Below, piece by piece: positions 2,827-59,290 of a stretch of 64,000 nt of DNA. The notes beneath the pieces were generated by a model that was not told the origin of the DNA, did no database searches, and saw only the letters and a program-made list of their open reading frames with translations. Position 1 is the stretch's first letter, and every line of letters starts with the position of its first letter. Origin of the DNA: Pseudomonadales bacterium (lineage in GTDB: Bacteria > Pseudomonadota > Gammaproteobacteria > Pseudomonadales > Ketobacteraceae). The position numbers and the translations under genes were made by a program. Where the stretch lies: contig JAGUVW010000045.1 in assembly GCA_020062665.1 (NCBI GenBank), forward strand, positions 1 through 64,000, read 5' to 3'.

Positions 2827-2920
2827 ATTTGCAAATGTTTGCAAATTGACAAAACAAAAAGCAAATATATATGCAAATTCAATGATTTACCTTTGCCTAC
2901 CATTCGAGTTTGCAAAATAT
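2827..2920. promoter_or_regulatory. TTTGCAAA-type operator repeats, regulator/acnD spacer
   Basis: The divergent spacer contains ATTTGCAAATGTTTGCAAAT (2827-2846), then GCAAATATATATGCAAATT (2861-2879) and TTTGCAAAATATGCAG (from 2909). RamB/ScfR-family proteins are known to bind TTTGCAAA-like sites, and the same words recur before prpC. Confidence 0.65.
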
Positions 2921-3026
2921 GCAGCGATACTGCAAGCCGTTTGATTCCCTGTTTTGGCCAATCATTGGCCTCAATCCGTTTGCCGTAGGCAAAAACAAGC
3001 AACCTGTTGTAGCGGGCAAAACCACC

Positions 3027-6819: not shown

Positions 6820-6853
6820 TTTCAACATTCAACAAATTCGTAATGGAGTATTT

Positions 6854-7955: not shown

Positions 7956-8032
7956 GCACTGAAACTGCCATTCATCGAAAGGCCGTCAGGCCATGACCCT
8001 GAAAATCCTGATTGTTGGCAGAGGAAAAATCC

Positions 8033-16322: not shown

Positions 16323-16333
16323 CGGAGTTCATC

Positions 16334-17266
16334 ATGTTCAACCTTAACGCTACACCCTCGTACAAACGCGAAATTTTTCGTGTTCAGCTCAACAGTGGTC
16401 GCCTGCTGCAATTTCCTGGCGCCTATTCGCCACTGGTGGCACGCATGATCGAACAAACCGGTTTCGATGGCGTTTACCTTTCCGGCGCGGCCCTGGCGGC
16501 CGAGCTGGGTTTACCCGATATTGGACTCACCACCATGACGGAGATAACCCAGCGCGGTTACCAGATCAGCCGCGCCACCAATTTGCCCGCCCTGATCGAC
16601 ATCGACACCGGCTTTGGTGAACCGATGAACCTGGCCCGCACGATTTTCGAATTGGAAAATCTGGGGCTGGCGGGCTGTCATATCGAAGATCAGGTAAATC
16701 CCAAACGTTGCGGTCATCTGGATGGCAAGCAGGTAGTGGACACCGCCACTATGATGAAACGGATTCGCACCGCAGTGGATGCACGCCGCGATCGTAACTT
16801 TATCATCATGGCTCGCACCGATGCCCGAGCCATCGAAGGACTGGAAGCCGCCATTGCCCGTGCACAGGCCTATGTGGATGCAGGTGCCGATGCAATTTTT
16901 CCCGAAGCATTGGCCAATGAACAGGAATTCGAGCGATTCCGCGCAGCCATCAAAGTCCCCATGCTGGCCAACATGACGGAATTCGGAAAATCAACGCTGC
17001 TAACGGCACAACAACTCCGCAATCTAGGCGTTAATCTGGTGATCTATCCAGTGTCCACGCTACGCGCATCCATGGGCGCGACAGAACGACTGCTCACCAC
17101 TATTCGCAGCACAGGCAGCCAGAACGACGCTGTACCCCAGATGCAGACCCGCGCCGAGCTGTATCAACTGCTGCAGTACGAAGCCTACAACCAGTTTGAT
17201 CAGGATATTTTCAATTTTACTCTGGGGGCCGGAACTGCCGACAGGGAAGTCGAAATCACAACGTGA
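16334..17266 (+). CDS. prpB: methylisocitrate lyase PrpB
   Basis: This 310-aa canonical PrpB cleaves 2-methylisocitrate to pyruvate and succinate. It shows YLSGAALAAELGLPDIG, IDIDTGFG (metal site), the catalytic PKRCGH loop, MARTDARAIEG and the C-terminal TRAELYQLLQYEAYNQFDQ typical of the family. The ATG at 16334 has CGGAG 6 nt upstream and lies 11 nt after the preceding stop. It is the last gene of the propionate cluster and is convergent with folK, 12 nt away. Confidence 0.93.
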   Translation: MFNLNATPSYKREIFRVQLNSGRLLQFPGAYSPLVARMIEQTGFDGVYLSGAALAAELGLPDIGLTTMTEITQRGYQISRATNLPALIDIDTGFGEPMNLARTIFELENLGLAGCHIEDQVNPKRCGHLDGKQVVDTATMMKRIRTAVDARRDRNFIIMARTDARAIEGLEAAIARAQAYVDAGADAIFPEALANEQEFERFRAAIKVPMLANMTEFGKSTLLTAQQLRNLGVNLVIYPVSTLRASMGATERLLTTIRSTGSQNDAVPQMQTRAELYQLLQYEAYNQFDQDIFNFTLGAGTADREVEITT

Positions 17267-17278
17267 ACATGTTGCTTG

Positions 17279-17857: not shown

Positions 17858-17878
17858 CCAGCATCAAATGCGCCTGAG

Positions 17879-18499: not shown

Positions 18500-18532
18500 A
18501 GTGAAGTTTGATCACATCAACTGATAGTGCAA

Positions 18533-18561: not shown

Positions 18562-18569
18562 CTCGCGGA

Positions 18570-20867
18570 TCACACGGATTTGCGCAGCGTTTTGGCTGCC
18601 TCAACCATATTGGTCAATGCAGGAATCACCTCATTCCACTGGCGGGTTTTAAGGCCGCAATCCGGGTTTACCCATAAGCGCTCAGCCGGAACACGCTCGG
18701 CAGCCAGTTTCATCAGCTTCACCATGTAGTCCTGATTGGGAATATTGGGCGAGTGAATATCATAAACACCGGGTCCGATTTCATTGGGGTACTCGAAGTT
18801 TTTGAACGCATCCAGCAGCTCCATATCAGAACGCGACGTTTCGATAGTGATCACGTCAGCATCCAGATCAGCGATGGACTTGATGATGTCGTTGAACTCG
18901 GAGTAACACATGTGCGTGTGGATCTGGGTTTCGTCTTCCACGCCGTTGGCCGTGATGCGGAACGATTCCACCGCCCAGTCCAGGTATTCCTGCCATTGGG
19001 CGCGACGCAAAGGCAGACCTTCACGCAGGGCTGCTTCGTCGATCTGGATCACGCTGATGCCGGCCTTTTCCAGATCCAGCACTTCTGCACGCATCGCAAG
19101 CGCAAGTTGATAGCAGGAAATAGATCGCGGCTGATCGTCGCGCACGAAGGACCAGTTCAAAATAGTCACCGGGCCGGTGAGCATTCCTTTCATGGGTTTC
19201 CTGGTGAGCGACTGCGCGTACTTGCTCCACTCCACCGTCATCGCTTTCGGGCGGCTGATGTCGCCGAACAGAATCGGCGGCTTCACGCAGCGGGAACCGT
19301 AGGATTGCACCCAACCGAACTGGCTGAAGGTGTAACCGTCGAGCTGCTCGCCGAAGTATTCCACCATATCGTTACGCTCGGCTTCGCCGTGTACCAGCAC
19401 ATCCAGATCCAATAATTCCTGCTCACGTACGCTGTACGCGATTTCTGCCCGCATGGCTTGCAGATAACTGGCTTCCGATATTTCCCCAGCTTTGAATCGG
19501 CGGCGCGCCTGCCGAATGTCTGACGTTTGTGGAAACGATCCAATGGTAGTGGTGGGAAATTTTGGCAGTTTGAGCAGCGCAGCCTGTTTAGCCGCGCGAG
19601 TGGCGTAGGGACTCTTGCGCTGACCCAGCTTGGCGTCAAGTTTGGCAATCGCCGCTTTCACAGCCGGATTATTTACACGCGGCGAATTGCGACGTGCTGC
19701 GATGGCAGCAGCGTTGGCTTCCAGCTCGGCCTTAACCGCAGCCGGGCCCTGGTTGATGGCAGTCGCCAACACTGACAATTCAGTCAGCTTTTGCTTGGCG
19801 AAAGCCAGCCAGGATTTGATCTCGGCATCCAGTTTCACTTCACTGTCCAGATCCACCGGCACATGCAGCAGCGAACAGGACGGCGCAATCCACAGCCGAT
19901 CACCCAGTTGCTTGGAAACCGGCAGCAACCATTCCAACACGGCATTCAGATCCGTCTTCCAGATATTGCGGCCGTTGATCACACCCAGCGAAATCACGCG
20001 GTCAGCAGGCAGTTTTGCAATCAGTGCGTCCACTTCGTTGCCGGCATTGATGGCATCCAGATGCACGCCCTGCACCGGAAGGCTCGCCACCAGTTCCAGA
20101 TTGCTTTGTAGCTGGCCGAAGTAAGTAGCCAGCAATAACTTGACCTTTGTGTCCGACAGCGCTTGATACGCCTGAGTAAAGGCTTTGACCCAGTCCGCTT
20201 CCAGTTCAGTCACCAGAATGGGTTCATCGATCTGCACCCATTCCACGCCTTGCGCAGCCAGGGCGTTCAGCAGTTCCACATACACCGGCAACAGGCGGCC
20301 CAGCAGTTCCAGACGGTTGGAGTCATCCTTTTCTTTACCGATTGAAAGATACGTCACCGGGCCAATGATGACTGGCTTGGCTTTCACACCCTGTGCTTTG
20401 GCTTCCGCCAGTTGCGCCAGCAGGCGCGAAGCGTCCAGCTTGAATTCGGTATCGGCTTTGAAATCGGGCACGATGTAGTGGTAGTTGGTATCAAACCACT
20501 TGGTCATTTCCCCTGCCGCTACACCCCCGTGGTTGCCGCCACAGCAGCCTTCTTCAGACGACTTTGCCGAGCGGCCACGAGCCACACGAAAGTAGTTGTC
20601 CAGCGCATCACCATGGAAGTCACGCACTCGATTAGGCAGACAGCCCAGGGTGAAGCTCATATCCAGCACCTGATCGTAGAACGAGAAATCGCCCACGGGG
20701 GCCAGATCCAGCTGGTTCTGCAGCGCCCAGTTCTGTTGACGCAGGCCAGCGGCCACAGCCTTGAGTTCGTCACGTGAGGACTGATCCTTCCAATAGGATT
20801 CGAGGGCAAATTTCAGTTCGCGCTTGGCGCCAATACGGGGAAAGCCGAGGTTGTGCGTGCGTGCCAT
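18570..20867 (-). CDS. metE: cobalamin-independent methionine synthase MetE
   Basis: The 765-aa enzyme transfers a methyl group from methyl-tetrahydrofolate polyglutamate to homocysteine without B12. I chose ATG 20867 ([19 protein letters not shown]) because GGAGG lies 8 nt upstream. The two-barrel architecture is complete. Zinc ligands are visible in the C-terminal barrel: [10 protein letters not shown] (His and Cys) and NPDCGLKTR (Cys). It is divergent from metR, the usual arrangement for MetR-activated metE. Confidence 0.96.
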
Positions 20868-20914
20868 GGGTGCAGCCTCCATGTAGTGAATGTGGGGCCA
20901 TGCTACGCTGGCGA

Positions 20915-20962: not shown

Positions 20963-21880
20963 ATGGATATTTCCCCCATGGCCAAGCTGGAACGCACGCA
21001 TCTTGAAATCATTCGCGCCGTGGACGAGCACGGCTCACTGACAGCGGCGGCGGAAAAACTGCATTTAACCCAGTCCGCGCTAAGCCACACCATGCGCAAG
21101 CTGGAAAGCCAGCTGGATCTGGCCATATGGTCCCGGGAGCGCCGCGGATTGCGCCTGACCCAGGCCGGGGAATATCTGCTGGCGGTGGCCAATCGCCTGG
21201 TGCCGCAACTGGATTTTGCCGAGGAACGCCTGCGCCAGTTTGCCTGCGGGGAACGAGGCGCCCTGCGAATCGGCATGGAGTGCCACCCCTGCTATCAATG
21301 GCTGCTGAAAATCGTGTCGCCCTACCTGGCGGCCTGGCCGGCGGTGGATGTGGATGTGAAACAGAAATTCCAGTTCGGCGGCATCGGTGCCCTGTTCGGT
21401 TACGAGATCGACATGCTGGTAACGCCCGACCCTCTCTACAAGGCGGGGTTGCAGTTCGTCCCCGTATTCGACTACGAACAAGTGCTGGTGGTGGGCCCCA
21501 GGCATCCTCTGCTGGGCGCGGCCTACGTACAACCCGCCCAACTGGTAGATGAGACATTGATTACCTATCCTGTCGCCGTCGACCGGCTCGATATCTACAC
21601 CCAGTTCCTGACCCCCGCCGGTATCAGCCCCAAACGCCACAAACCCATCGAAACCACCGACATTATGTTGCAGATGGTGGCCAGCGGCCGCGGCGTTGCA
21701 GCACTGCCACGTTGGCTGGTGGAGGAATACAGCGACAAGCTGAATGTCACGCCAATCAAACTCGGCCGCAAGGGTGTAGCGAAACAGATTTTCCTGGGAT
21801 TTCGCGAAACGGATGCAGAAGTGGACTATCTGCGCGCCTTTATCGAACTGGCCCGCGCGCATCGCAAACAGTCAGGGTGA
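20963..21880 (+). CDS. metR: LysR-family regulator MetR
   Basis: The 305-aa LysR-type regulator has an N-terminal winged helix-turn-helix (SLTAAAEKLHLTQSALSHTM at about residues 24-43) and a periplasmic-binding-like effector domain. MetR uses homocysteine as co-effector to activate metE. The divergent position next to metE and the MetR-like sequence (ECHPCYQWL; IETTDIMLQMVASGRGVAAL) support the name. Translation may begin at ATG 20963 or at ATG 20978 (MAKLERTHL), the usual LysR-like beginning. Confidence 0.88.
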   Translation: MDISPMAKLERTHLEIIRAVDEHGSLTAAAEKLHLTQSALSHTMRKLESQLDLAIWSRERRGLRLTQAGEYLLAVANRLVPQLDFAEERLRQFACGERGALRIGMECHPCYQWLLKIVSPYLAAWPAVDVDVKQKFQFGGIGALFGYEIDMLVTPDPLYKAGLQFVPVFDYEQVLVVGPRHPLLGAAYVQPAQLVDETLITYPVAVDRLDIYTQFLTPAGISPKRHKPIETTDIMLQMVASGRGVAALPRWLVEEYSDKLNVTPIKLGRKGVAKQIFLGFRETDAEVDYLRAFIELARAHRKQSG

Positions 21881-21956: not shown

Positions 21957-22004
21957 AATACCAAATATGGGGCTTTACCTTCAACCTTCCACAATATATT
22001 GTGT
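21957..22004. promoter_or_regulatory. tandem NrdR boxes upstream of nrdA
   Basis: CCACAATATATTGTGT (21989-22004) matches the NrdR box consensus. A weaker box centred on CCAAATATGG (21961-21970) lies 31 bp upstream centre-to-centre, the three-turn spacing normal for cooperative NrdR binding. They sit immediately before the riboswitch, so transcription from here would be nucleotide-responsive. Confidence 0.7.
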
Positions 22005-22009
22005 GCCTA

Positions 22010-22234
22010 TCTGGTTGATGGGCCTATAACCCGTCTGAAAAGGGAATCCGGTGAGAATCCGGAACTGACGCGCAGCGGTATGGAAGAACGAACGCGACAG
22101 GGGAAATCCCCAGGCACTGTTTCCAGGCCTCACATGGGCAGAAACAGCAAGCCGTCGCCGTAGGTGTACCCGTTTTAGCAGAATACGTTTTAGCTGAAAT
22201 AAGGGTACGTGCTTCCGAGTCCGAAGACCTGCCA
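22010..22234 (+). promoter_or_regulatory. cobalamin riboswitch controlling nrdAB
   Basis: The leader contains hallmark cobalamin-aptamer elements in order: AAAAGGGAATCCGGTGAGAA (22038-22057), AATCCGGAACTGACGCGCAG (22056-22075), GGCACTG (22113-22119) and the 3' B12 box with GAGTCCGAAGACCTGCC (about 22216-22232). It lies about 150 nt upstream of nrdA. By family knowledge it would repress this B12-independent class Ia reductase when adenosylcobalamin is plentiful, as in bacteria that also have class II NrdJ. Confidence 0.92.
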
Positions 22235-22384
22235 GAGATCACTTCAGTCCTCGCGTAATGGGACAATGGAGCTGACTGTCGTTGGCGGGATCTCATGTGT
22301 TGGCGGGATTCCTTGCCGCATTGTCACGCCCTGCACCTGTACGCCGGACTGGTTTCTCGCGAGCCAGAACAAGGACAGGCCACC

Positions 22385-25195
22385 ATGAATACCCCTTTCC
22401 CGGCACCATCATCCAATCGCCAGTTTATCGCTTCGAATGTTCGTCAACCGCTGTTTGTCGTCAAGCGCACCGGTCAGGCCGTGCCGTTCGATGCCAGCAA
22501 AATTGCCATCGCTCTGACCAAGGCGTTTCTCGCGGTGGAAGGCCAGCAAGCCTCCGGATCGGCCCGGGTGCGTGGCGCGGTGGACGCCATTTCCCAGGAT
22601 ATTGCCCAGCGTATTCAACGTCGCCTGCCCGATGGCGGCAGCGTGCATATCGAAGATATTCAGGATCTGGCAGAACTGGGTTTGATGCGCCACGGCTTTC
22701 AGAAAATCGCCCGCGCCTATGTGTTGTATCGCGAAGCCCAGCACCAAAAGCGCCAGAGTGAACAGCCTGCCCAGCCGGTGGATGGCATCGAGGTGGTGGA
22801 CAGCCAGGGCAACCGCAGCGTGCTGGATCTGGCCCAGGTGGGTGACATTGTGCGCTGGGCCTGCTCGGGTATTGCCGATGTGGATGTGGATCTGCTGCTG
22901 CAAAACAGTCGCAAGGCGTTGTTCAACGGCATGAAGGCCGACGATGTGTCCACCGCGTTGATCATGGCCGCCCGCCCGCTGATTGAAACCGATCCCGGCT
23001 ATTCCAATGTGTGCGCGCAACTGCTGCTGCACAAACTGTGGGGCGAAGTGGTGAACGGCCTGCAACTCAACAACATTGTGCCGACACATTACGAAGGTGA
23101 ATGTTACGGCGATATTTTTCGCATCGCATTGCAAGCCGGCATCGAACATGAATTGCTGACGCCAGAGCTGGAACAGCTATTCGATCTGGATCGACTGGCG
23201 GCCGCATTGCAACCGGAGCGGGATCGCCAGTTCACCTATCTGGGCCTGCAAACCCTCTACGACCGTTATTTTTTGCATACTCAAAAAACACGACTGGAGT
23301 TGCCGCAAACCTTTTTTATGCGGGTGGCCATGGGCCTTGCCTTGCGGGAGGACGATCCCAACGCACGGGCGATTGAATTCTATGATGTGCTGTCCCGTTT
23401 TGATTACATGGCCTCGACGCCAACGCTATTCAATGCGGGCACGTTGCGCTCACAGCTTTCCTCCTGCTATCTCACCACAGTGCCCGATGATCTCGATGGC
23501 ATTTACAACGCAGTGAAGGAAAATGCACTGCTGTCGAAGTGGGCCGGCGGCCTGGGCAATGACTGGACACCGGTGCGTGCATTGGGCGCCCATATCAAAG
23601 GCACCAATGGTGAGTCGCAAGGCGTTGTGCCGTTTCTGAAAGTGGTGAACGACACTGCCGTGGCGGTGAATCAAGGTGGCAAACGCAAAGGCGCCGTGTG
23701 CGCCTATCTGGAAAGCTGGCATCTGGATATCGAAGAATTTCTGGAGCTGCGAAAAAACACCGGCGATGAACGCCGCCGCACCCACGACATGAACACCGCC
23801 AACTGGATTCCCGATCTGTTTATGAAGCGGGTGATCAACGAACAGGAGTGGACGCTGTTTTCCCCCAGCGATGTGCCAGATCTGCACGACCTTTTTGGCA
23901 TGGCGTTTGAAGAGCGCTACACCCATTACGAAGCGCTAGCGAAAGCGGGCGAGATTTCATTGTATCGCTCAGTGCCGGCCACCCAGTTGTGGCGCAAAAT
24001 GCTCACCATGCTGTTCGAAACAGGCCATCCCTGGATCACCTTTAAAGATCCCTGCAACCTGCGTTCGCCCCAGCAGCATGTGGGTGTGGTGCACTCCTCC
24101 AACCTGTGTACCGAAATCACGCTGAACACCAACGACAACGAAATCGCGGTGTGCAACCTGGGATCGGTGAATCTGGTGCAGCACGTGCACAATGGCACAC
24201 TGGATCAGGCGCGGCTGGAACGCACTATCACCACTGCCGTCCGCATGCTCGACAACGTGATCGACATTAATTACTACGCGGTAGAAAAAGCCCGCAATGC
24301 GAATCTGCAACATCGCCCGGTGGGCTTGGGTTTGATGGGCTTTCAGGATGCGCTGCATGTGCTGGAAATTCCTTACGCCAGTGCCGATGCCGTGCACTTT
24401 GCCGATCAATCCATGGAACTGATCAGCTACTACGCCATTCGCGCCTCGGCATTGCTGGCGCAAGAGCGGGGCCGCTATCCGAGCTACCACGGATCATTGT
24501 GGGATCAGGGCATGCTGCCCATCGACTCGCTGCAATTGCTGGCGGAGCAGCGTGGCGGCAATTTCTGTACCTTCGACACCCAGGTTCATCTGGACTGGCA
24601 ACCGGTGCGACAACTGGTGCAGCAACACGGCATGCGCAATTCCAACGTGATGGCCATTGCCCCCACCGCCACCATTTCCAACATTATCGGCGTGTCGCAA
24701 TCCATCGAGCCCAATTATCAAAACCTGTTTGTAAAATCGAATCTGTCCGGCGAATTTGCGGTGATTAATCCCTGGCTGGTGCAGGCACTGAAACAGCGCG
24801 GCTTGTGGGATTCGGTGATGATCAGTGATCTGAAATATTTCGACGGCTCGCTGAATGCGATCGAGCGCGTGCCGGAAGAGCTAAAACAGATCTTCGCCAC
24901 TGCGTTTGAAATCGATCCGCGCTGGCTGGTGGAAGCGGCAGCACGCCGTCAAAAGTGGATTGATCAGGGTCAGAGTCTGAACCTGTATCTGGCGGAGCCC
25001 TCCGGTAAAAAGCTGGACAATCTGTACAAGCTGGCGTGGTCCCGCGGGTTGAAAACCACCTATTACTTGCGTTCCCTGGGTGCCACTCATGCGGAAAAGA
25101 ACAGCGATCGAGAAAGCAGCACGTTGAATGAAAGCAACGTTGAAGACGTGAAATTCTGCTCCATCGACAACCCGGATTGCGAGGCCTGCCAATAA
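22385..25195 (+). CDS. nrdA: class Ia ribonucleotide reductase, large subunit
   Basis: The 936-aa R1 subunit reduces ribonucleoside diphosphates using a radical from NrdB. There is an ATP-cone near residues 20-115 (VVKRTGQAVPFDASKIAIAL) and probably a second cone near 135-230. Catalytic residues visible are C361 (SSCYL), C575 (NLCTE), C590 (CNLGS), the radical-relay YY in KTTYYLRSLGATHAEK, and the C-terminal reducing pair in DCEACQ. I place the start at ATG 22385, after the riboswitch leader. The stop overlaps the nrdB start (TAATG). Confidence 0.96.
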   Translation: MNTPFPAPSSNRQFIASNVRQPLFVVKRTGQAVPFDASKIAIALTKAFLAVEGQQASGSARVRGAVDAISQDIAQRIQRRLPDGGSVHIEDIQDLAELGLMRHGFQKIARAYVLYREAQHQKRQSEQPAQPVDGIEVVDSQGNRSVLDLAQVGDIVRWACSGIADVDVDLLLQNSRKALFNGMKADDVSTALIMAARPLIETDPGYSNVCAQLLLHKLWGEVVNGLQLNNIVPTHYEGECYGDIFRIALQAGIEHELLTPELEQLFDLDRLAAALQPERDRQFTYLGLQTLYDRYFLHTQKTRLELPQTFFMRVAMGLALREDDPNARAIEFYDVLSRFDYMASTPTLFNAGTLRSQLSSCYLTTVPDDLDGIYNAVKENALLSKWAGGLGNDWTPVRALGAHIKGTNGESQGVVPFLKVVNDTAVAVNQGGKRKGAVCAYLESWHLDIEEFLELRKNTGDERRRTHDMNTANWIPDLFMKRVINEQEWTLFSPSDVPDLHDLFGMAFEERYTHYEALAKAGEISLYRSVPATQLWRKMLTMLFETGHPWITFKDPCNLRSPQQHVGVVHSSNLCTEITLNTNDNEIAVCNLGSVNLVQHVHNGTLDQARLERTITTAVRMLDNVIDINYYAVEKARNANLQHRPVGLGLMGFQDALHVLEIPYASADAVHFADQSMELISYYAIRASALLAQERGRYPSYHGSLWDQGMLPIDSLQLLAEQRGGNFCTFDTQVHLDWQPVRQLVQQHGMRNSNVMAIAPTATISNIIGVSQSIEPNYQNLFVKSNLSGEFAVINPWLVQALKQRGLWDSVMISDLKYFDGSLNAIERVPEELKQIFATAFEIDPRWLVEAAARRQKWIDQGQSLNLYLAEPSGKKLDNLYKLAWSRGLKTTYYLRSLGATHAEKNSDRESSTLNESNVEDVKFCSIDNPDCEACQ

Positions 25196-26382
25196 TGAAT
25201 AAAGCTGATTCTTCACTGAATGGTTGGGATGATCCATTTGCAGTGGCGGTACCTGCCGCCACTCGCAGTTTGTTTAATACCGGCGGCATCGCACCTGCGC
25301 TGAAAACAGCAGAAATGGTTGTGCCGCCACCCGTGGCACCAGAAAAAAAGACGCTGCTGGCGGAACAGGATATTGCGTCCCTGCCGCCGATCAATCCCGA
25401 GGACAAACGCATCGTCAACGCCAAAACCGATATCAACCAGTTGGCGCCATTCAAATATCCCTGGGGCTGGGAATTTTTTCTCAACGCCAACAAGAATCAC
25501 TGGACGCCGCTGGACATCAACATGTCCCGCGACATTCATGATTTTCATCACCGCCTCACCACCGAGGAGCGCCACGTTTATACCAACGTGCTGGCCTATC
25601 TGACCACCTCGGATATTCTGGCCATGCGCAATATCGGGCTGGCGGTGATGGAAAAAATGAGCGCGCCGGAATTGCAGATCTATCAGGCCCGCCAGGTGTA
25701 CGAAGAAGCCTTACACACCTGGACCTACCAGCACTGCATCGAAACCATCGGCCTGGATCAAAGCGAAATCTACAACCGTTATCGGGTGGTGCCGGAAATT
25801 CATGGCAAAATCCGCCTGGCGAATGCACGGCTGAGCAGTGTGCTGCGTTCGGATCTGAATCTGGATAACCGCGATGATTTGGAACAGTTCGCCATGTCGT
25901 ATCTGTTCTTCGCCGCGATTTTTGAAGGCTGCTGGTTCTACAACGGCTTCAGCCCCATCTTTGCACTGCAGCGGCGCGGTTTGATGACCGGTACCGGCGA
26001 GCAGCTGCAATACATTCTGCGCGATGAAGTGCAGCATTGTGCATTTGGTCTGCGTGTGGTTCGCCAGTTGTTGCAGGAAGAATCACTGAGACTGGACCCG
26101 AAAGCGGTGCAAGCGTTGTTCGAAGAATCCGAAGCGGCTGAAGGAGCCTACGCCCACTATCTGCTGAAAGAACCGATCCTAGGTTACAGCGCCGAAGATC
26201 ATATCGGCCAGTTCCGCTTTGTTGCCAATCGTCGCGCCAAGCAATTGCAGTTGCCGGAGCCATTCCCCGGCGCCACCAACAAACTGGATTGGCTGGATGA
26301 ACAAGCGAGCATGCGCAAAGAGAAGAATTTCTTTGAAACGCGGGTGACGGAGTATCAAACGGGAGCGTCACTAAGCTGGTGA
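25195..26382 (+). CDS. nrdB: class Ia ribonucleotide reductase, small subunit
   Basis: The 395-aa R2 subunit houses the di-iron tyrosyl radical cofactor. Ligands and radical residues are visible in EEALHTWTYQHCIE (Glu, His and the radical Tyr), EGCWFYNGF and DEVQHCAFG. The ATG at 25195 overlaps the nrdA stop by one base (TAATG), with GAGG upstream, so the subunits are translationally coupled. It is the last recognisable core-metabolism gene before the plasmid-like origin. Confidence 0.96.
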   Translation: MNKADSSLNGWDDPFAVAVPAATRSLFNTGGIAPALKTAEMVVPPPVAPEKKTLLAEQDIASLPPINPEDKRIVNAKTDINQLAPFKYPWGWEFFLNANKNHWTPLDINMSRDIHDFHHRLTTEERHVYTNVLAYLTTSDILAMRNIGLAVMEKMSAPELQIYQARQVYEEALHTWTYQHCIETIGLDQSEIYNRYRVVPEIHGKIRLANARLSSVLRSDLNLDNRDDLEQFAMSYLFFAAIFEGCWFYNGFSPIFALQRRGLMTGTGEQLQYILRDEVQHCAFGLRVVRQLLQEESLRLDPKAVQALFEESEAAEGAYAHYLLKEPILGYSAEDHIGQFRFVANRRAKQLQLPEPFPGATNKLDWLDEQASMRKEKNFFETRVTEYQTGASLSW

Positions 26383-26413: not shown

Positions 26414-26769
26414 CTCGTCGTAGGAACGAATAATTGCGAATGACCGCTATCGGTAAAATGGCGCATATGATTCGATTGTCACAGATGTCCGCAATCAGCT
26501 TGGAGTGTCCATAGTGGTGGAGTAGATCGACTGTCTTCTACGGGTCGAATTCACCCCTTCGAGCTGCAGCTTGGTGAGCAGATACAGGAGGATCTTGTAG
26601 TATTCCACCTCCACCAAATGTTACAACACGCGCACACGCACACAACTTCCAAGATCTCATTGGAAACACCCGCCGAAGAAACAAGTCTTATGAGTCGGTA
26701 GTTATCCACAAACGTAACTATGCCAAACAGCTTTTTCAGAGATAACCGTGATTTTGCAGTAATCACGAA

Positions 26770-26937
26770 ACGCAACTGATCCGAAACCAACGCAACCAAG
26801 CCAAAACCCGCGATACATGCAATTTGGGGCGGACGTAACCAATCCAAAGGACAACGTAACCAACCTGAATTTAGACATAACCAAGATGAATAGAGACGCA
26901 ACCGAGCCAGAAAAGGACGTAACCAATACAAAAGATG
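26770..26937 (+). repeat. 21-bp iterons (ACRYAACC core)
   Basis: ACGTAACC, ACGTAACC, ACATAACC, ACGCAACC and ACGTAACC begin at 26833, 26854, 26875, 26896 and 26917, an exact 21-bp period. Weaker units (ACGCAACT, ACGCAACC) occur at 26770 and 26790. Two helical turns per unit fits binding of a Rep protein on one DNA face. Confidence 0.85.
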
Positions 26938-27032
26938 CTCTATCTTTCTGATTATAAAGGATAAATTAGGCCCCCAATTATCAATATTCAACTATCAATA
27001 ATTACACAGTTATCCACAGATACCGTACCTCC

Positions 27033-27049
27033 GTTTCAACCGTTGAAAC
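27033..27049. other. parS-like palindrome, copy 1
   Basis: GTTTCAACCGTTGAAAC is a perfect 17-bp palindrome (odd centre) between the DnaA box and rep. It has the same arms as the copies at 29046, 30130 and 30834. Confidence 0.6.
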
Positions 27050-27129
27050 TCTACTGAACAGCTAGGAAATCACCTAAAAATCATTAGTAATCAATAATAT
27101 ATATAACGTTTTTACAGCAATATCTTTTC

Positions 27130-27390
27130 ATTCACTTGTGTTAGTTATATTTATGGCATCGAAACGTTTATAGCCAGTACAGAAAACCTAATATGTTCAA
27201 TGATTTAAGCGACATACCTTAGTTATATTTTCGAAACCAAAACGTCCAACTGGCTGCTGTATATATTGTTAGTTGTCGTTCTGGAATTAAAACGTCTTGC
27301 TAGTTAGCCAGCTAGATGCTATACGTTTATATGGTTGCTTTCAGAGCACATAAACGTCTCAATGGTTAATAGATGAGAATCTGTACGTCC
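27130..27390 (+). repeat. degenerate AACGT-centred repeats before rep
   Basis: Units such as TTAGTTATATTT followed by GAAACGT, AAAACGT, AAAACGT and TAAACGT (AACGT at about 27163, 27241, 27291 and 27353) recur at 50-80 bp intervals up to the rep gene. They differ from the 21-bp iterons and could be rep autoregulation or handcuffing sites. Confidence 0.4.
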
Positions 27391-27418
27391 ATTCTTCAGG
27401 AGAAACAAGGAAATCAAG

Positions 27419-29029
27419 ATGACAACTGATTGGCCATGGAGCGGACAGATCTACGAGGTACCGGAACCTCGACTTGAGCAGCTTGCTTTAATGAGAAACA
27501 TTCCAGGGCTAACGGAAGACGAAAGATATTTTCTGTTGGGTATTGTTTCGTTGGCTGCTTCAAATCCTGAACGGCGTACCGACCAAAGTAAAATACAAGC
27601 CTATTTGAATGCCAATAACAAACCCTTGGCACCTGCCACCATTAAGCTGCGAGTACTACACTTGCATGATCTTGGCATTTTCAATCGATATGAGATACCT
27701 AGACCAAAAACACGGAATGCCGTTGTTTTCCAATTGGAAGACCTTGCAAAGCTAATACAGTCTGAAAAGCTGGTTGCAAGAGAAGCCACTCTGAATCGTC
27801 CCCAAACCGCGTTCAACGGTCGAACAATCGTTCCTGACGAGCCCCATTTATTGCTGGAAGGTTCCGATGATCACAAACATGCGTACTCACGCAAAATAAA
27901 TCACGTCATCCTCAGACGTTGTTCAGCCGATCCCACCCACTTGGGGAAAAAAATCCCCATTGTGTTACCAGGTTACAAGGAAACCGTTTTTGTGACCCAG
28001 CGTGTAGCGTCTGGAATACCGCCCATGGATGGCACAGAAGATCGATTACAACAGGCTCTGCTTACTATGTTCAAAGAGCACCTAATCAAATACAGGATGC
28101 TCAATCCGCACCTTCAACCCCACGACATCAAGAACGAGTGGTTACTGGATATGCGGGAAGTCTGCAGAAGCATGAAGCTCCGTCCCAGCTCTGGAAACAT
28201 TGTCGTTCAGGCAAAACGCCTCTACCAGCTTCGCTACAATACGTTCGAGATTCACTTTGACCCTTCAGGTGCCGCCGCCAAAGCATTGAACTTGCTCAGG
28301 GGAGAAGGCATACCGGAGTTTTTCAAGGACGAACGCGAAGGAACACTGCATCAACTTCACAATGATAGAATTGACCAGTATTTCCTTTCACTTTTGGAGC
28401 CTGTGCGGGATGAAATTGTATGGTCTGCCGATCAACAAGCACTGGCACTTGAAGACAAGAGCTCGCAAGAACCTGTTAACCCCACATCAATCGATGACCG
28501 GGATCTTATCTACGACCGCAGTGGCCGACTTTACAGATTCTACCGGGTATCCTTTCACCCTTTAGTTTTCCAGGAATGCCTGGACGATGCATTAGGGCAA
28601 CTCCACAAGCAACCGCCAAGTTTGCTGGAGGAGGAACGAGTGGTTGCACGATTGTTGGTTTACCTGGCCCAAAGGGTAATTGGTAAAACCCGGGATCGAC
28701 CTTTTGAAGCCAGCTGGGGCGATATCGCGACAGAACTTCAACCCCTTCAGGATAACCAGAAGCTAGTTTTTCAACAGATGGAAAAGGTATTTAAAGCTGA
28801 GAATCCTCATTGGAAACCGTCGGATGATGAATCCGGTGGGCTCGCAGCCAATCTACACGGGTACATTTTTGAGACGATCATTCCACCTGGTAAGCAACGG
28901 CGGCGTAGACAGTGGAAACTCAGAATCTCCAGGGATCAAAACCACCCTTATAATGGCGATACAGGTCCAGCGGCAGTTGCCCGGTATCTTGCTGATGCAC
29001 GTCGTGCGGCAGGGTTGCCATCGGGTTAA
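27419..29029 (+). CDS. putative replication initiator (Rep)
   Basis: This 536-aa protein follows the iteron/DnaA-box region and has an AAGGAAA-type ribosome site. Features seen: an N-terminal helical region with a winged-helix-like pattern (DQSKIQAYLNANNKPLAPAT, then IKLRVLHLHDLGIFNRYE), a central region (HDIKNEWLLDMREVC; SSGNIVVQAKRLYQLRYNTF), and a basic C-terminus (GKQRRRRQWKLRISRDQN). Initiator function is inferred from context; sequence alone does not let me name a Rep family, although RctB-type or other large plasmid initiators are possible. GC content is visibly lower than in the upstream metabolic genes, consistent with transfer. Confidence 0.6.
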   Translation: MTTDWPWSGQIYEVPEPRLEQLALMRNIPGLTEDERYFLLGIVSLAASNPERRTDQSKIQAYLNANNKPLAPATIKLRVLHLHDLGIFNRYEIPRPKTRNAVVFQLEDLAKLIQSEKLVAREATLNRPQTAFNGRTIVPDEPHLLLEGSDDHKHAYSRKINHVILRRCSADPTHLGKKIPIVLPGYKETVFVTQRVASGIPPMDGTEDRLQQALLTMFKEHLIKYRMLNPHLQPHDIKNEWLLDMREVCRSMKLRPSSGNIVVQAKRLYQLRYNTFEIHFDPSGAAAKALNLLRGEGIPEFFKDEREGTLHQLHNDRIDQYFLSLLEPVRDEIVWSADQQALALEDKSSQEPVNPTSIDDRDLIYDRSGRLYRFYRVSFHPLVFQECLDDALGQLHKQPPSLLEEERVVARLLVYLAQRVIGKTRDRPFEASWGDIATELQPLQDNQKLVFQQMEKVFKAENPHWKPSDDESGGLAANLHGYIFETIIPPGKQRRRRQWKLRISRDQNHPYNGDTGPAAVARYLADARRAAGLPSG

Positions 29030-29045
29030 TGGTTGGTTAACGCGC

Positions 29046-29062
29046 GTTTCAACGGTTGAAAC
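29046..29062. other. parS-like palindrome, copy 2
   Basis: The GTTTCAACGGTTGAAAC core, extended by flanking GCGC/GCGC to a 25-bp palindrome (29042-29066), lies between the convergent ends of rep and the ParB-like gene. Confidence 0.6.
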
Positions 29063-29068
29063 GCGCAA

Positions 29069-29986
29069 TCATCGATTGGGTAATAGCGCCATCAAATCAT
29101 TCGCATCGCGGTATTTGAAAGTAAGCTCCACTCCCCACCTTTTTTTGGTCACCTTCGGTTTGTGATGAAGTTGGGCACTATCTACGATTTGAGCAATCAA
29201 TTCTGAATCTAAATCGCTGACAAGAATCTTGCACCACCCTCCCCTACCTGTACTTCGAAATCGGATCTCGCAACCATAATGATTGCTGAGCTCATCAGCG
29301 TACTGTTGGCTTAGTACCTTCCCTACACGAAAGTCCCCTGCTCCATCTCCAATAAACCGAATAGCCTGTTCCAGCTCCCTGATCGTCGGTTTTGGATTGG
29401 ATGTTTCATACCAGTGAAGCATCCGTAATTGGTGCTTCGCATCTGTCAGTGCAATTGTTCTGGCAACAGATTCTGAAATATCCCGGTTAATGAGGGCATT
29501 CTGCACTTCAGGCCTGAGTTTCAGCAGTTGAACTGTATTATTGATAACGGATCGCTTGATGCCCAACTGATAGGCGGCTTTCTCCTGAGAACCATGGACT
29601 CGGATCTGTTCAGCGAAATAGTCTGCCCGTTGTAACGGGTTAAGATCAGTAGGTGAAGACTGTTCCGAACTGGATTGATGGGAAGGTGTAACAGCGACTG
29701 TTTCTAAAATGGAACCCAGCGGAAGTAGATCTGGCATTGATGAAGGCCATTCACCAATCAAAGCCCAAACTGACACTTCGCCTGCCAGCACTGCTGCATG
29801 CACAACTTCTACATTCGTAGCTGGCCTGTAGCGATCCATGTCGCTCTTTCTCGGGTAAAGCAGGACAGTTCCTTGGGGACCACCTAATTGCTGGATCATC
29901 TGAGTCAAGTAGGCGACCAGCCGTCGGTCAGGCTTGGAAAAGCTCAAGTTGATCAGTTGCGTACTAACCAGTCTGCGCTCAATCAT
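29069..29986 (-). CDS. ParB/KorB-like DNA-binding protein
   Basis: The 305-aa frame from ATG 29986 (MIERRLVSTQLINLSF; GGAG 7 nt upstream) contains a ParB/KorB-type helix-turn-helix block (HGSQEKAAYQLGIKRSVINN, then TVQLLKLRPEVQNAL and ESVARTIALTD) at about residues 130-200. Upstream in-frame starts read through palindromic operator sequence and are less likely. A canonical GERR nucleotide motif is not obvious, unlike the second ParB at 30557. It may be an accessory regulator of rep or par, or a second partition protein. It is convergent with rep. Confidence 0.65.
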   Translation of the reverse strand: MIERRLVSTQLINLSFSKPDRRLVAYLTQMIQQLGGPQGTVLLYPRKSDMDRYRPATNVEVVHAAVLAGEVSVWALIGEWPSSMPDLLPLGSILETVAVTPSHQSSSEQSSPTDLNPLQRADYFAEQIRVHGSQEKAAYQLGIKRSVINNTVQLLKLRPEVQNALINRDISESVARTIALTDAKHQLRMLHWYETSNPKPTIRELEQAIRFIGDGAGDFRVGKVLSQQYADELSNHYGCEIRFRSTGRGGWCKILVSDLDSELIAQIVDSAQLHHKPKVTKKRWGVELTFKYRDANDLMALLPNR

Positions 29987-30001
29987 TGTCATGCTCCAGC
30001 A

Positions 30002-30073
30002 GTTCTGTCTCATGTGAGACAGAACAATTCTAGCATTGTATTTCATGAGATGCATATTCCCATGAAATACAAT
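30002..30073. promoter_or_regulatory. two perfect inverted repeats upstream of the ParB-like gene
   Basis: GTTCTGTCTCA / TGAGACAGAAC (30002-30025, 2-nt spacer) and ATTGTATTTCATG / CATGAAATACAAT (30035-30047 and 30061-30073) are perfect inverted repeats just upstream of the chosen start. They look like repressor operators in the promoter. Confidence 0.55.
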
Positions 30074-30116
30074 TACTTACTGGATGTAACAACGGAGAAG
30101 GGATCGTGAAAAGATA

Positions 30117-30557
30117 CTACTTTGTTCCCGTTTCAACGGTTGAAACGGGAACACCTTCAACATAGTCTCGGTAGTTGATGCCTTGAAGCTTCAGTGCCTG
30201 TCGTATAGCAATACAAGCTACCCGAGTGCGAAAGTCAGAAAACTCACAGCCTGTTGATACAGTCATTTCTCCAAAAAGTTGAAGCTGGCGGGAGCAGCTG
30301 GGCGACATTTTGACCCGTACAGGAAGAATGTTGGCAACCAACGGAGGATGTAACTTGAGCGTGTCTATTACCTCAGGCATAGGCATGTCCCGCCAGGATT
30401 CAAATAGCTCCTCTATGGCTTCTGAGACCCAGCGACTTCTCGACTTGAGATTGTATTGTTTTTGTACCATAGCCGCAGATACTGCTTTCCAAATTTCAGG
30501 CTTAAGCCGGAGCGACAATGCTGCATTATGCTTTCTAAGAGACAGCCCTTTACGCAT
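30117..30557 (-). CDS. ribbon-helix-helix-like protein of the par operon
   Basis: This protein of about 146 aa from ATG 30557 has a basic N-terminus and a stretch (NAALSLRLKPEIWKAVSAAM, then SRSRWVSEAIEELFES) that looks like a ribbon-helix-helix DNA-binding domain. Its start overlaps the parB stop by one base (TGATG), so it is coupled to parA-parB. The last residues, VPVSTVETGTK, are encoded by a parS-like palindrome. It could be an operon autorepressor or copy-control protein. The function is inferred. Confidence 0.6.
   Translation of the reverse strand: MRKGLSLRKHNAALSLRLKPEIWKAVSAAMVQKQYNLKSRSRWVSEAIEELFESWRDMPMPEVIDTLKLHPPLVANILPVRVKMSPSCSRQLQLFGEMTVSTGCEFSDFRTRVACIAIRQALKLQGINYRDYVEGVPVSTVETGTK
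30130..30146. other. parS-like palindrome, copy 3
   Basis: The GTTTCAACGGTTGAAAC core, extended by TCCC/GGGA to a 25-bp palindrome at 30126-30150, lies within the last codons of the RHH-like gene. Confidence 0.6.
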
Positions 30558-31828
30558 CAATCCAATTCCTTGAAGACATCTGCGAGCTCGCACCAGGCAT
30601 CCAACACAGCATCGCGGCTCTCGTAATCAACTGATCGCAATGCTTTGCTGAGTCGTTTCGGTAATCTATTGGATTCTGCAAGGGTGCTCAAAACACCTTT
30701 GATAACCGTCAGGTCTGTGTTCTTCCGAATGCTAAGGCCCAACCTGGCGGCCTTAGCTTCATTGCTAGCAGCCTCTTTCAATTGTTTTCTCACAGACGCC
30801 GCAGACTGAGTAGCAGGGGTATCTTTGGGGTCTGTTTCAACGGTTGAAACCGGTCGGTGAGCGGATGGATTAGCTGAGATTACATCATGGGCGTCCTGCT
30901 GGTTCCCCGCCTCTGCGGCGATACTAATACCGGGGTCAAAGCCGGACTCTTCTTTTAAAACAGCTTCCATGCTGGCGGTTGTATCCTCTAGGTGGGCAAC
31001 CCTGCCGCTTACTACTGCGTTGATTTCACGCCACCCCAATTTTTCCTTTCGAATGGTTTCAAGATAAGAAGCTTGAAGGGGATGGTTGAACAGCCTTCGC
31101 AGCACAGATGCGGTTCCTATGGCCACGTGCCAGATACGGGCAAGGTCTTTAACCTCAAGTTCATCCTTGTCGTCACCCAGTTCCTCCCAGATGGCAAGTT
31201 TGGCTGCAACAGTTTCATGGGGCTTTAGCGCTTTTCCAGTGTTTTCTTGGTCGGTGACTTTCCGGCACTGAAGAGGGGAGAGTCCTGTGTAGACCTTTGC
31301 CATCAGCACAGGAATCAGCCCTCGACTGTACAGCGCCGCGATCACACGGCGCTCACCTGCCAGTAGAACAAATCGATTGTCTTGAGGTCTAACCCTATTC
31401 AGCACGATATTGTGTATTTGGTCTTCCCGTAGCATCAGGGCAAGGCTATGGATCTCCTCAAAGAAGAGAATGATTTCGTCCTGCCGACCTTCTCGCTTTG
31501 CCAGATTCCACCACTCCTGCCGACAGCTATCCAGTGCCGACAACAATGCATCCCGCACTGCATCATCCGGGATATCCAGGCTTGGCCACGCTATCGCCCT
31601 GATTTCATGAAGCGTGCAGGGGATGTCGCGGGGGTTAAACAGGTGATCGATCTGGGTAACATCAACATGCATGAAAGCCGGTAGGAGACCTTCAACGGCT
31701 GAAATCTCTGCAAGCGCGCGCTTGATAGGAGGCATTGCATCGGACGTTTGGGGTTGTTGGTCTTTCAATTTCGCCTTTGCTGCAGCCAATTTACTTTTGT
31801 TTTGTTCCATTCTGCTGATAGTCGTCAT
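30557..31828 (-). CDS. parB: ParB partition protein
   Basis: The 423-aa protein from ATG 31828 (MTTISRMEQNKSK) contains a ParB N-terminal nucleotide-binding domain with RFVLLAGERRVIAALYSRG near residues 165-185, followed by a helix-turn-helix region (LEVKDLARIWHVAIGTASVL) and a long, less conserved C-terminus. Its start overlaps the parA stop. A parS-like palindrome lies inside its own frame, encoding PVSTVET. By family knowledge it loads on parS and works with the ParA ATPase to segregate the replicon. Confidence 0.82.
   Translation of the reverse strand: MTTISRMEQNKSKLAAAKAKLKDQQPQTSDAMPPIKRALAEISAVEGLLPAFMHVDVTQIDHLFNPRDIPCTLHEIRAIAWPSLDIPDDAVRDALLSALDSCRQEWWNLAKREGRQDEIILFFEEIHSLALMLREDQIHNIVLNRVRPQDNRFVLLAGERRVIAALYSRGLIPVLMAKVYTGLSPLQCRKVTDQENTGKALKPHETVAAKLAIWEELGDDKDELEVKDLARIWHVAIGTASVLRRLFNHPLQASYLETIRKEKLGWREINAVVSGRVAHLEDTTASMEAVLKEESGFDPGISIAAEAGNQQDAHDVISANPSAHRPVSTVETDPKDTPATQSAASVRKQLKEAASNEAKAARLGLSIRKNTDLTVIKGVLSTLAESNRLPKRLSKALRSVDYESRDAVLDAWCELADVFKELD
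30834..30850. other. parS-like palindrome, copy 4
   Basis: GTTTCAACGGTTGAAAC lies inside the parB coding region. A degenerate fifth copy (TTCAACGGCTGAAAT) is at about 31691-31705. Confidence 0.6.
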
Positions 31829-32820
31829 GCTACCTCCGGCGAGAAGATTCCATTGTACAAACACTCAAAAAATACCTCGGCATCTCGACGTGCCGGGTTG
31901 GATGGCTTCTCGTGAAAAATGGAATAGGGTTTTGGACGACGCTCGACATCGTCGGTTAGGGTGCGGTAGGCCGTAAGACGGCGCAACCAGATGCCTTCAT
32001 CCAAGTGAAATGATCCCGCATCCTCCATCGCCCTGGCGATGCACTGAATATGATCAGCACTGCGAGAGTCCACTATGTTTGGGGCTATCCCAAGTAACTG
32101 AAGTTTCTCCGGTCGATATTTGTAAATCACACGATTTTGCATAGCTGTTTTCACGGCATCGATTAATGCCTCGATACCGCTGACTGATTTGCTTTCTGGG
32201 ATGTAGGGGCAAAAAACATGCGTCGCGGCATTCAGTGCAGCATTGAACAGCGGGCTATCGGACGGACCTGTGTCAATGATAACCAGGTCGTACTGTTCTG
32301 CTAGTGATGGATCAGAAACGAAATCGACTAGATGTTGAATTATTTGATCTGAGCCAATTTCAGCCAATCGGTGGTAGGGCGAGTTCTTCATTTCTGTTGG
32401 ACTGGATTCCAGCAGATATTTAATGCCCATGTAGTTACCTGCCACGATATCAATGCGGGGTGACGCAACGTCATCTGGATCGCCATAGCAGAAGCGGGTA
32501 GGGTAGGGCATCACGCATTTATTGGCCTCAAAGATGTCCGTGATGGTAGAGCGCAGATTGTAGATTTCTAGTGCAGAAGGATCTTCAGCAGCCATTGCAG
32601 CCACAATGGGATTAGGTACCGGAAGACGCCCCCACCCAGGAACAGTTTCAACTCCTACATAAGATTTAGTCAGGTTCATTTGACCATCCCAATCTAACAA
32701 CAACACCCGTTTTCGATGGTTGATACAGGCGTACTCTGCACTCAGTGATGCCAAGGTTGTCTTTCCAACCCCACCCTTATTATTCAAAACGGTATAACAA
32801 GGCACACCATTGGTAATCAA
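31825..32820 (-). CDS. parA: ParA partition ATPase
   Basis: The 331-aa deviant-Walker ATPase has NNKGGVGKTTLASLSAEYA at residues 13-31 (Walker A), LLLDWDGQMNLT (A') and DLVIIDTGPSDSP (Walker B). There is no N-terminal HTH extension, so it resembles type Ib or chromosomal-size ParA. It is first in the parA-parB-RHH operon, with coupled starts. Three direct repeats in the promoter region are likely operator sites. Confidence 0.92.
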   Translation of the reverse strand: MITNGVPCYTVLNNKGGVGKTTLASLSAEYACINHRKRVLLLDWDGQMNLTKSYVGVETVPGWGRLPVPNPIVAAMAAEDPSALEIYNLRSTITDIFEANKCVMPYPTRFCYGDPDDVASPRIDIVAGNYMGIKYLLESSPTEMKNSPYHRLAEIGSDQIIQHLVDFVSDPSLAEQYDLVIIDTGPSDSPLFNAALNAATHVFCPYIPESKSVSGIEALIDAVKTAMQNRVIYKYRPEKLQLLGIAPNIVDSRSADHIQCIARAMEDAGSFHLDEGIWLRRLTAYRTLTDDVERRPKPYSIFHEKPSNPARRDAEVFFECLYNGIFSPEVA

Positions 32821-32854
32821 AGCGAATCTCCTTTTGCGCGGGTTGTCTTGATCA

Positions 32855-32924
32855 ATATACTACGTAAAACAACTACATTTATATACTACGTAAAACAACT
32901 ACGCAAATATACTACGTAAAATGC
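32855..32924 (-). repeat. three 26-bp-spaced direct repeats upstream of parA
   Basis: ATATACTACGTAAAAC begins at 32855 and 32881, and ATATACTACGTAAAA at 32907. Each contains palindromic TACGTA. The regular 26-bp spacing immediately upstream of parA suggests an operator for the RHH-like or another par protein. Confidence 0.7.
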
Positions 32925-59184: not shown

Positions 59185-59290
59185 GTGCAGCTCCAGTATC
59201 AGTTGTGTGCGATGTCGCAGCATCACTAGACCACAACGTCAACGGGCTGTCGTGCGAAATGCCTAGATTGGTTTGAGTTTCAAAAAATGA

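Follow-up and report, generated by a model that had tools for sequence, protein, structure and literature searches.

The DNA described here is the first 64,000 bases of contig C52 (JAGUVW010000045.1, 114,478 bases in full) from the genome of a Pseudomonadales bacterium of the family Ketobacteraceae (5,779,219 bases in 92 contigs), and we refer to this whole stretch as the window. Directly after the ribonucleotide reductase genes nrdAB, the window holds a plasmid-type replication and partition unit with a predicted initiator gene, rep. nrdB stops at 26382 and the origin features start at 26702; from there the order is DnaA box, iterons, DnaA box, palindrome, AT-rich stretch, split repeats and initiator gene, followed by a cluster of partition genes on the opposite strand. 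The features of this unit are:

26702..26710, plus strand: DnaA box 1, exact TTATCCACA
26770..26947, no strand assigned: iteron array, 21-bp spacing from 26832, reverse-complement core TGGTTRCGT
27010..27018, plus strand: DnaA box 2, exact TTATCCACA
27033..27049, no strand assigned: parS-like palindrome within the origin, exact GTTTCAACSGTTGAAAC
27055..27154, no strand assigned: AT-rich stretch (76% AT, the top 100 bp within 26.6-27.4 kb), possible unwinding element
27142..27388, plus strand: six split repeats TRGTT-N18-CGT starting at 27142, 27220, 27270, 27301, 27332 and 27363, putative autorepression/copy-control sites
27419..29029, plus strand: rep, replication initiator of 536 amino acids, assigned to the RctB superfamily by an hhalign profile chain
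29046..29062, no strand assigned: parS-like palindrome, exact GTTTCAACSGTTGAAAC
29069..30055, minus strand: protein with a ParB helix-turn-helix (HTH) domain (PF17762, 8.1e-15)
30117..30593, minus strand: small protein, ribbon-helix-helix-like by eye
30130..30146, no strand assigned: parS-like palindrome, exact GTTTCAACSGTTGAAAC
30557..31864, minus strand: divergent ParB-like protein (TIGR00180, E 0.009, under the cut-off)
30834..30850, no strand assigned: parS-like palindrome, exact GTTTCAACSGTTGAAAC
31825..32820, minus strand: parA, partition ATPase (AAA_31, 8.7e-19)

The predicted initiator was found in two of 57 genomes, the present one and that of a family member, Pseudomonadales SP163 (G010), and the same-genus relative G001 lacks it, as do 55 of the 56 relatives in the set. 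The SP163 protein, encoded on the 67-kb contig PAPM01000001.1, is 63% identical over nearly the whole length by alignment (64% in the genome search). A class-wide draw of 369 genomes gave one with the initiator, which is the present genome, and a pattern scan using one genome per species gave one true relative, the same SP163 contig. A Bacteroidetes locus (L004) was rejected as a chance match lying within an unrelated protein of 1665 amino acids. Relatives were not found in viral_contigs, the initiator has no match in PLSDB at 1e-3, and neither it nor its SP163 relative matches PF11826 (RctB_central).

The SP163 initiator, in contrast, gave one plasmid record in PLSDB at a limit of 10, and it weakly matches (E 4e-4) a Teredinibacter purpureus plasmid protein annotated as an RctB-domain initiator. 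That plasmid protein passes PF11826 (33.8 over 27). A profile built from it and four further plasmid relatives (A3, five RctB-like plasmid initiators) matches two structures: 5ubf, an RctB structure, at 2e-15, and 5tbf, labeled a translation elongation factor in the table, at 1.6e-15. When the two-row profile of the initiator and its SP163 relative (A1) was compared with A3 using hhalign, the result was 98.4% and 4.3e-15 over 462 columns (2.6e-17 in a local repeat), and all seven reversed or column-shuffled controls scored 0.055 or worse. Likewise, a profile in which the initiator is included (A2) matches the RctB structure at 1e-13. By this chain of profiles, the initiator belongs to the RctB superfamily.

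The features of an iteron plasmid, namely direct repeats by the initiator gene, DnaA boxes and an AT-rich stretch, are all present upstream of rep. Five iteron copies are spaced exactly 21 bp apart from 26832, with two related copies, at 26770 and 26790. The minus-strand reading of the iterons is TGGTTRCGT, a core that is also present in SP163. The period-21 self-match of positions 26770-26940 is 0.453, and none of 2000 mononucleotide shuffles exceeds 0.429; positions 26700-27000 give 0.371, which is above the 99th percentile of the shuffles (0.362) and below their maximum (0.395). GATC is absent from the regular iterons, and the single GATC in 26700-27420 is at 26778. The only further exact TTATCCACA within the window is at 62144. 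No promoter-like site was found in a sigma-70 scan of 21.8-27.45 kb.

The same two half-motifs are joined in the iterons and split by 18 bp in the second array, which lies directly before rep. The second array has six split repeats at one spacing, compared with a maximum of two at any spacing from 0 to 39 in 1000 dinucleotide shuffles, none of which reached six, and SP163 has four at the corresponding place, equaled by none of 1000 such shuffles; these shuffle numbers flatter the case because the half-motifs were picked by eye beforehand. At all seven RctB-like loci compared, near-copies of the commonest 9-base word upstream of the gene are more numerous than in any of 20 shuffles. Repeat runs at 21-23 bp occur in C52, SP163, T. 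purpureus, Marinobacter and Marinomonas, and the upstream repeats of Neptuniibacter and Hydrocarboniclastica lie mostly at other spacings. We also observed that a 31-bp step recurs between repeats before initiator genes, at 27270-27363 in C52, at 21587-21649 in the SP163 contig, and upstream of 9659 in Hydrocarboniclastica.

On the partition side, ParA has matches in 86 plasmid records, every one below 60% identity. The HTH of the protein at 29069..30055 resembles Noc/ParB structures. The small protein is without a match in Pfam, NCBIfam and PHROGs and is 34% identical over 50 amino acids (E 9e-5) to its positional counterpart in the SP163 par cluster, and the ParB-like protein at 30557-31864 has no match in PLSDB. 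The order ParA, ParB-like protein, small protein, ParB recurs in SP163, where ParA is 31% identical. The 17-bp palindrome GTTTCAACSGTTGAAAC has four exact copies, at 27033, 29046, 30130 and 30834, and a scan of the whole genome (5,779,219 bases) allowing up to two mismatches found it only at those four sites; a backwards control gave none. The SP163 contig, when searched, gave five copies of the palindrome TGTCCGGACTCCGGACA at 46296-50129, in and around its par cluster, along with a different single palindrome directly behind its ParB gene. The repeated palindromes of both contigs are 8-1-8 in form. ParA and clustered, unique palindromes, two of the parts of a ParABS locus, are present, and the three small proteins are candidates for the centromere binder.

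A preliminary description of this DNA had named 21-bp iterons, two perfect DnaA boxes, a putative initiator and parS-like sites after nrdAB. Each of these holds up: five iteron copies are exactly spaced from 26832, the boxes at 26702 and 27010 are exact, the initiator is placed in the RctB superfamily by its profile chain, and the parS-like sites are four exact palindromes unique in the genome. Of the parA-parB-RHH cluster that it also named, ParA stands, and the remainder resolves into three genes, one weakly ParB-like, one with its ribbon-helix-helix read by eye, and one with the ParB HTH. A plasmid-type replication and partition unit next to nrdAB is well supported. The second array (27142-27388) and the riboswitch described below (21995-22250) were not listed there.

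The left 26 kb of the window carries metabolic genes that bear on vitamin B12:

196..1173, plus strand: kfrA-like gene, plasmid-associated DNA-binding protein (PF11740 KfrA_N, 94.5 bits, cut-off 26.1)
1350..2789, minus strand: RamB/ScfR-like regulator (NF038139, E 2.6e-145, 484.6 bits, under the cut-off of 700)
2910..5618, plus strand: acnD, 2-methylisocitrate dehydratase of the methylcitrate cycle (TIGR02333, 1709 over 1419.85)
5632..6819, plus strand: prpF, 2-methylaconitate isomerase (TIGR02334, 756.9 over 440.55)
6788..7717, plus strand: methylisocitrate lyase-like (prpB-like) gene (TIGR02317, 291.9, under the cut-off of 354.4)
8012..9187, plus strand: prpC, 2-methylcitrate synthase (NF009006, 717.7 over 550)
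9226..12666, plus strand: pyc, pyruvate carboxylase (NF009554, 1605.3 over 965; TIGR01235, 1506.4 over 1114.45)
12752..15364, plus strand: second copy of acnB, aconitase/2-methylisocitrate dehydratase (TIGR00117, 1474 over 1287.2)
16043..17266, plus strand: prpB, methylisocitrate lyase (TIGR02317, 417.3 over 354.4), start probably internal, the match beginning at residue 109 of the open reading frame
18570..20882, minus strand: metE, B12-independent methionine synthase (TIGR01371, 1117.3 over 929.95)
20963..21880, plus strand: metR-like LysR regulator, divergent from metE (best NF011950 MetR, 218 bits, under the cut-off of 382)
21995..22250, plus strand: cobalamin riboswitch upstream of nrdA (RF00174, 77.7 bits, gathering score 31.5, E 2.1e-17, full model 1-189)
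22385..25195, plus strand: nrdA, class I ribonucleotide reductase large subunit (NF005544, 1618.2 over 965), probable start at 22385 in a reading frame that opens at 22295
25177..26382, plus strand: nrdB, class I ribonucleotide reductase small subunit (NF005550, 328.6 over 309)

Matches to Thr_leader at 7.7 kb were discounted as being under the gathering score. AcnD, PrpF, PrpB, PrpC, AcnB and Pyc together give a full methylcitrate pathway for propionyl-CoA plus anaplerosis. About 135 bases separate the riboswitch from the probable start of nrdA. Cobalamin riboswitches in front of B12-independent isozymes act as repressors in the presence of B12. The family relative G005 has the same order of metR, riboswitch (57.9 bits) and nrdAB as C52, and its metR-like product is 61% identical; prp and metE were not found in the 40 kb examined.

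Given the presence of acnB, metE and pyc beside nrdAB, the preliminary description had spoken of core genes on a plasmid-type replicon, which would define a chromid. The genes are there; their core status does not follow. The acnB gene of the window has a 77% counterpart on contig C25 (G000:C25:62898), and counterparts at 75-77% were found in eight of nine relatives searched, G005 giving just a 35% match. Full-length pyc was found in one of ten genomes, the present one. Among the 14 relatives G001-G014, NrdB is full-length in one (G005, 80%) and a fragment of 43 amino acids in another. For the remaining enzymes the counts refer to 14 genomes (the present one, G001, G002 and G004-G014). MetE occurs in three (the present genome, G002 and G005), and the MetE of C52 is the sole one found in its genome. 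MetH, the methylmalonyl-CoA mutase family and CobS occur in all 14, and NrdJ in 13, with none in G007, by a model that is not exclusive and also takes the NrdA of C52 at its cut-off (7/14 control genomes pass). On these counts the supposed core genes are accessory cargo, and MetE, NrdAB and the methylcitrate cycle with Pyc look like B12-independent counterparts of B12-dependent core enzymes. The 26 kb to the left of the origin starts with the KfrA gene and follows contig C86, which carries a KfrA gene, a recombinase and a transposase; nrdAB therefore belongs to the cargo, and the earlier proposal of a plasmid integrated beside nrdB does not stand as it was worded.

The cargo has a counterpart on a different kind of replicon. 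Plasmids often carry NrdA relatives (1421 records at 1e-30), and one plasmid, pAZI09, an IncP plasmid of the betaproteobacterium Azospira sp. I09, appears both among 40 listed of these and among 25 listed of 114 MetE records. Within about 31 kb, pAZI09 carries ten cargo counterparts that are 31-84% identical to those of C52: prpC (84%), nrdB (77%), prpF (76%), acnD (75%), a PrpB-like gene (73%), the LysR gene (MetR, 72%), nrdA (66%), metE (60%), pyc (58%) and the fatty-acyl regulator (31%). These uneven identities could reflect an old shared island or repeated assembly. pAZI09 differs from C52 in replicon type, host class and the position of prpC, has no acnB annotated in the examined stretch, and carries in addition putative B12 uptake genes, nrdD, glyA and folB. 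It has two cobalamin riboswitches, one of them before a hotdog-domain gene and nrdA; at 22239-22823 of this locus (L228), the riboswitches are divergent and about 180 bases apart, one facing the hotdog gene and nrdA and the other a TonB receptor gene. The Azoarcus plasmid pAZKH was rejected as a second carrier, since the 45 kb examined hold pyc without the full set, and on a Massilia putida plasmid some 55 kb separate acnD from pyc. In the titles and abstract openings listed from open PubMed Central papers, no mobile set of B12-independent isozymes is mentioned; an Azotobacter plasmid with B12 synthesis genes appears there in excerpt (PMC4465626).

The closest well-known parallel to the origin is ori2 of Vibrio cholerae. 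Excerpts of the published accounts describe six 12-mers spaced 10-11 bp apart with a period of 22-23 (PMC6090056, PMC11711613, PMC3688505), iterons that start replication and 29/39-mers that inhibit it, and a 29-mer before rctB that serves autorepression (PMC6090056, PMC3688505). As far as these excerpts go, C52 and ori2/RctB are alike in having an initiator of one superfamily, regular iterons, a DnaA box, an AT-rich stretch and ParAB nearby, as well as a second, longer class of repeats that includes one before the initiator gene. The C52 initiator, however, is too divergent from RctB for PF11826, the regular C52 iterons lack GATC, and C52 has two DnaA boxes and six split repeats whereas ori2 is described with one box, two 39-mers and one 29-mer. 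The half-motifs of C52 occur in both of its repeat classes, in contrast to the Vibrio iterons and 29/39-mers, which share no similarity according to an excerpt of PMC6090056. The C52 replicon is also probably not essential. RctB-type chromids and plasmids have been described, again in excerpt (PMC8826520), and T. purpureus Bs12_MP is one plasmid with an initiator of the same superfamily and repeats mostly 21-23 bp apart; its initiator is 18% identical and its NrdA 61% identical to those of C52. On Bs12_MP (L075, NZ_CP060093.1), positions 11983-17591 hold the RctB-like gene followed directly by nrdB and nrdA. Two of the seven RctB-like loci have a rep gene next to nrdAB, those of C52 and T. purpureus; with NrdA also common on plasmids, we claim no functional coupling of the two. 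The SP163 contig shares the initiator, iteron core, DnaA box and split repeats with C52 and differs in having different conjugation genes and a CRISPR-Cas set, both read by eye, a different palindrome and a par cluster that lies 23 kb from rep. By eye, its positions 2418-2897 resemble a CRISPR array and 7414-11777 hold Cas3/Cas1 genes.

Conjugation genes, which the preliminary description had reported lacking nearby, are missing in the window only, with family matches at 73.4-95.1 kb of C52. The relaxase matches MobH (297.6 over 200) and the PFGI-1 TraI domain TIGR03760 (165.1 over 161.4), and transfer proteins of the TOL/PFGI-1 class match TraD (TIGR03754, 821.7 over 647.55), TraC (TIGR03744, 888 over 520.6) and TIGR03752 (279.3 over 241). 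Relatives of TIGR03755 and TIGR03756 fall under their cut-offs, one neighboring gene is without a match, and the transfer genes are in long open frames. A MobH/TraI relaxase together with a type IV secretion system (T4SS) of the PFGI-1 class, as in PFGI-1-class integrative and conjugative elements (ICEs), is present on C52. ICEs of this class and pKLC102 share with C52 the relaxase and T4SS families, ParA and a topoisomerase and single-stranded DNA-binding protein set; C52 differs from them in its own RctB-type origin, a second par locus and the absence of any att site found. Within the window, the shared set comprises:

56662..58656, minus strand: type I topoisomerase of the element backbone (TIGR01051, 505.4 over 456.4)
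58690..59226, minus strand: single-stranded DNA-binding protein of the element backbone (TIGR00621, E 4e-14, 53.1 bits, just under 53.95)

A second ParA-like gene lies at 65.5-66.3 kb of C52, under all NCBIfam cut-offs. To relate C52 to the remainder of the assembly, we compared the ends of all 92 contigs for exact overlaps at eight set lengths from 21 to 127 bases. The sole overlap at C52 is that of C86 (13.5 kb), which ends with the exact 99 bases that open C52; the missing links were not supplied by this comparison. Because C86 joins C52 by this 99-base overlap, the replicon is at least about 128 kb. The last 99 bases of C52 are common, reversed, to the start of contig C51.

Taken together, these data make it likely that a large conjugative plasmid or plasmid-ICE hybrid, at least 128 kb in size and carrying a B12-bypass cargo, has its replication and partition core in this stretch. 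The initiator would bind the iterons with help from DnaA, melt the AT-rich stretch and then load the replisome. The split repeats before rep would serve autorepression and copy control as the 29/39-mers do in Vibrio, and by this analogy we infer that they restrain replication. ParA and one ParB-like protein would partition the replicon via the palindromes, and the palindrome inside the origin might couple partition to initiation. The host has MetH, NrdJ and a methylmalonyl-CoA mutase in its core, and the cargo would provide it with B12-independent counterparts, with nrdAB turned on through the cobalamin riboswitch when B12 is scarce. We place at an even balance the broader proposal that this is a recurrent, transferable B12-bypass island of proteobacteria, one that replaces methionine synthase, ribonucleotide reductase and propionyl-CoA disposal at once under riboswitch control, and that rides here on an RctB-type replicon in which the same half-motifs start replication when joined and restrain it when split. 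The replicon also suggests that one conjugative event might be enough to free a host from dependence on B12, a main currency of exchange among microbes, which would tie plasmid ecology to vitamin ecology. With this initiator, RctB-type replication, known mainly for Vibrio chromosome 2 and related plasmids, gains a divergent branch in the Pseudomonadales, and the simple pair of repeat classes in the C52 origin is amenable to testing.

Several observations weigh against this interpretation. The initiator alone has no match in Pfam, NCBIfam or PHROGs (E 0.1), and its AlphaFold model, made from alignment A1, is unusable (mean pLDDT, a model confidence score, of 34). Since profile A1 alone reaches no RctB structure, superfamily membership is by way of the profile chain and not by direct match. 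The split-repeat motif, chosen by eye, has stray matches elsewhere, three in C52 and four in the SP163 contig, one of the latter just upstream of the SP163 iterons. Over their whole stretch, the SP163 iterons have no significant 21-bp period (0.283 compared with a shuffle 99th percentile of 0.351), although six near-copies are present despite the irregular spacing. The two ParB-like proteins are near-orphans (two weak records for the ParB-HTH protein and none for the other), and against their positional counterparts in SP163 the best E values are 0.003 over 18 amino acids and 0.026, so we discounted homology of these pairs. The SP163 contig is without the B12 cargo by blastp, and T. purpureus has nrdAB and not the rest of the cargo: the 25 kb examined of Bs12_MP contain no cobalamin riboswitch, prp or metE. 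Finally, no circle was closed, C52 having no terminal overlap at 15-200 bases, and both ends of the C86-C52 chain run into repeats, one of which is shared with C25, a contig of chromosomal genes.

The chain ends bear on an alternative that we regard as unlikely yet deserving of attention, in which the replicon is an ICE or plasmid residing in the chromosome and its origin is used only after excision. PFGI-1/TOL-class transfer genes are typical of ICEs, and C52 has the relaxase and transfer genes of this class. Tyrosine recombinase genes are found on both C52 and C86, but their scores are far under the Xer cut-offs. C86 opens with the same 99 bases as C25, the contig that holds MetH and acnB of the family; a 99-mer shared by two contig starts, however, could also reflect a short repeat that the assembly lacks, and the sole exact end overlap at C52 among the 92 contigs is with C86. 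No att site and no chromosomal junction were found, and C52 has no tRNA genes. A decayed plasmid remnant in the chromosome without a working origin is very improbable: the assembly is fragmentary, as this would allow, but the initiator is open and 63% identical to that of SP163 over nearly its whole length, the repeats and palindromes are intact, and the transfer genes keep their long frames.

Composition and gene content bear on the chromid proposal. Chromids are characterized, in an excerpt of PMC6090056, by plasmid-type maintenance, chromosome-like composition and core genes that are chromosomal in relatives. Plasmid-type replication and maintenance is present here by sequence, and all four candidate core genes fall away, acnB as a duplicate and nrdB, metE and pyc as accessory genes, though core genes may sit on unlinked contigs of the replicon. 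Composition is mixed. The lower GC noted earlier is real (0.533 for C52 compared with 0.588 for 98 pieces from elsewhere in the genome totaling 1.73 Mb, 5.5 points lower), but in tetranucleotide distance 19 of 22 5-kb windows, among them every one from 1 to 25 kb, stay below the 95th percentile of the chromosome. An essential second chromosome with a plasmid-type origin and core genes is the least credible explanation, since its RctB-type initiator as in Vibrio chromosome 2, its metabolic genes and its in-range tetranucleotides are set against tested genes that are second copies or rare (metE 3/14, NrdB 1/14 relatives, pyc 1/10), the GC difference, an initiator missing from G001 and nearly all relatives, and the lack of tRNA genes on C52.

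Other parts of the element were noted in passing. Its accessory part includes a C-5 cytosine methylase gene (34942-36327) and a DUF6094 methyltransferase gene (41801-42997), and beyond the window C52 has a CzcCBA-type efflux set, read by eye. A short palindromic repeat recurs at 99521-99684 and 114381-114478 of C52, at the start of C51 (1-99) and at the end of the SP163 contig, near tyrosine recombinases, and may mark where a mobile cassette ends. C51, a low-GC contig that shares this repeat end with C52, has genes at 17649-19336 that resemble UmuC and UmuD by eye.

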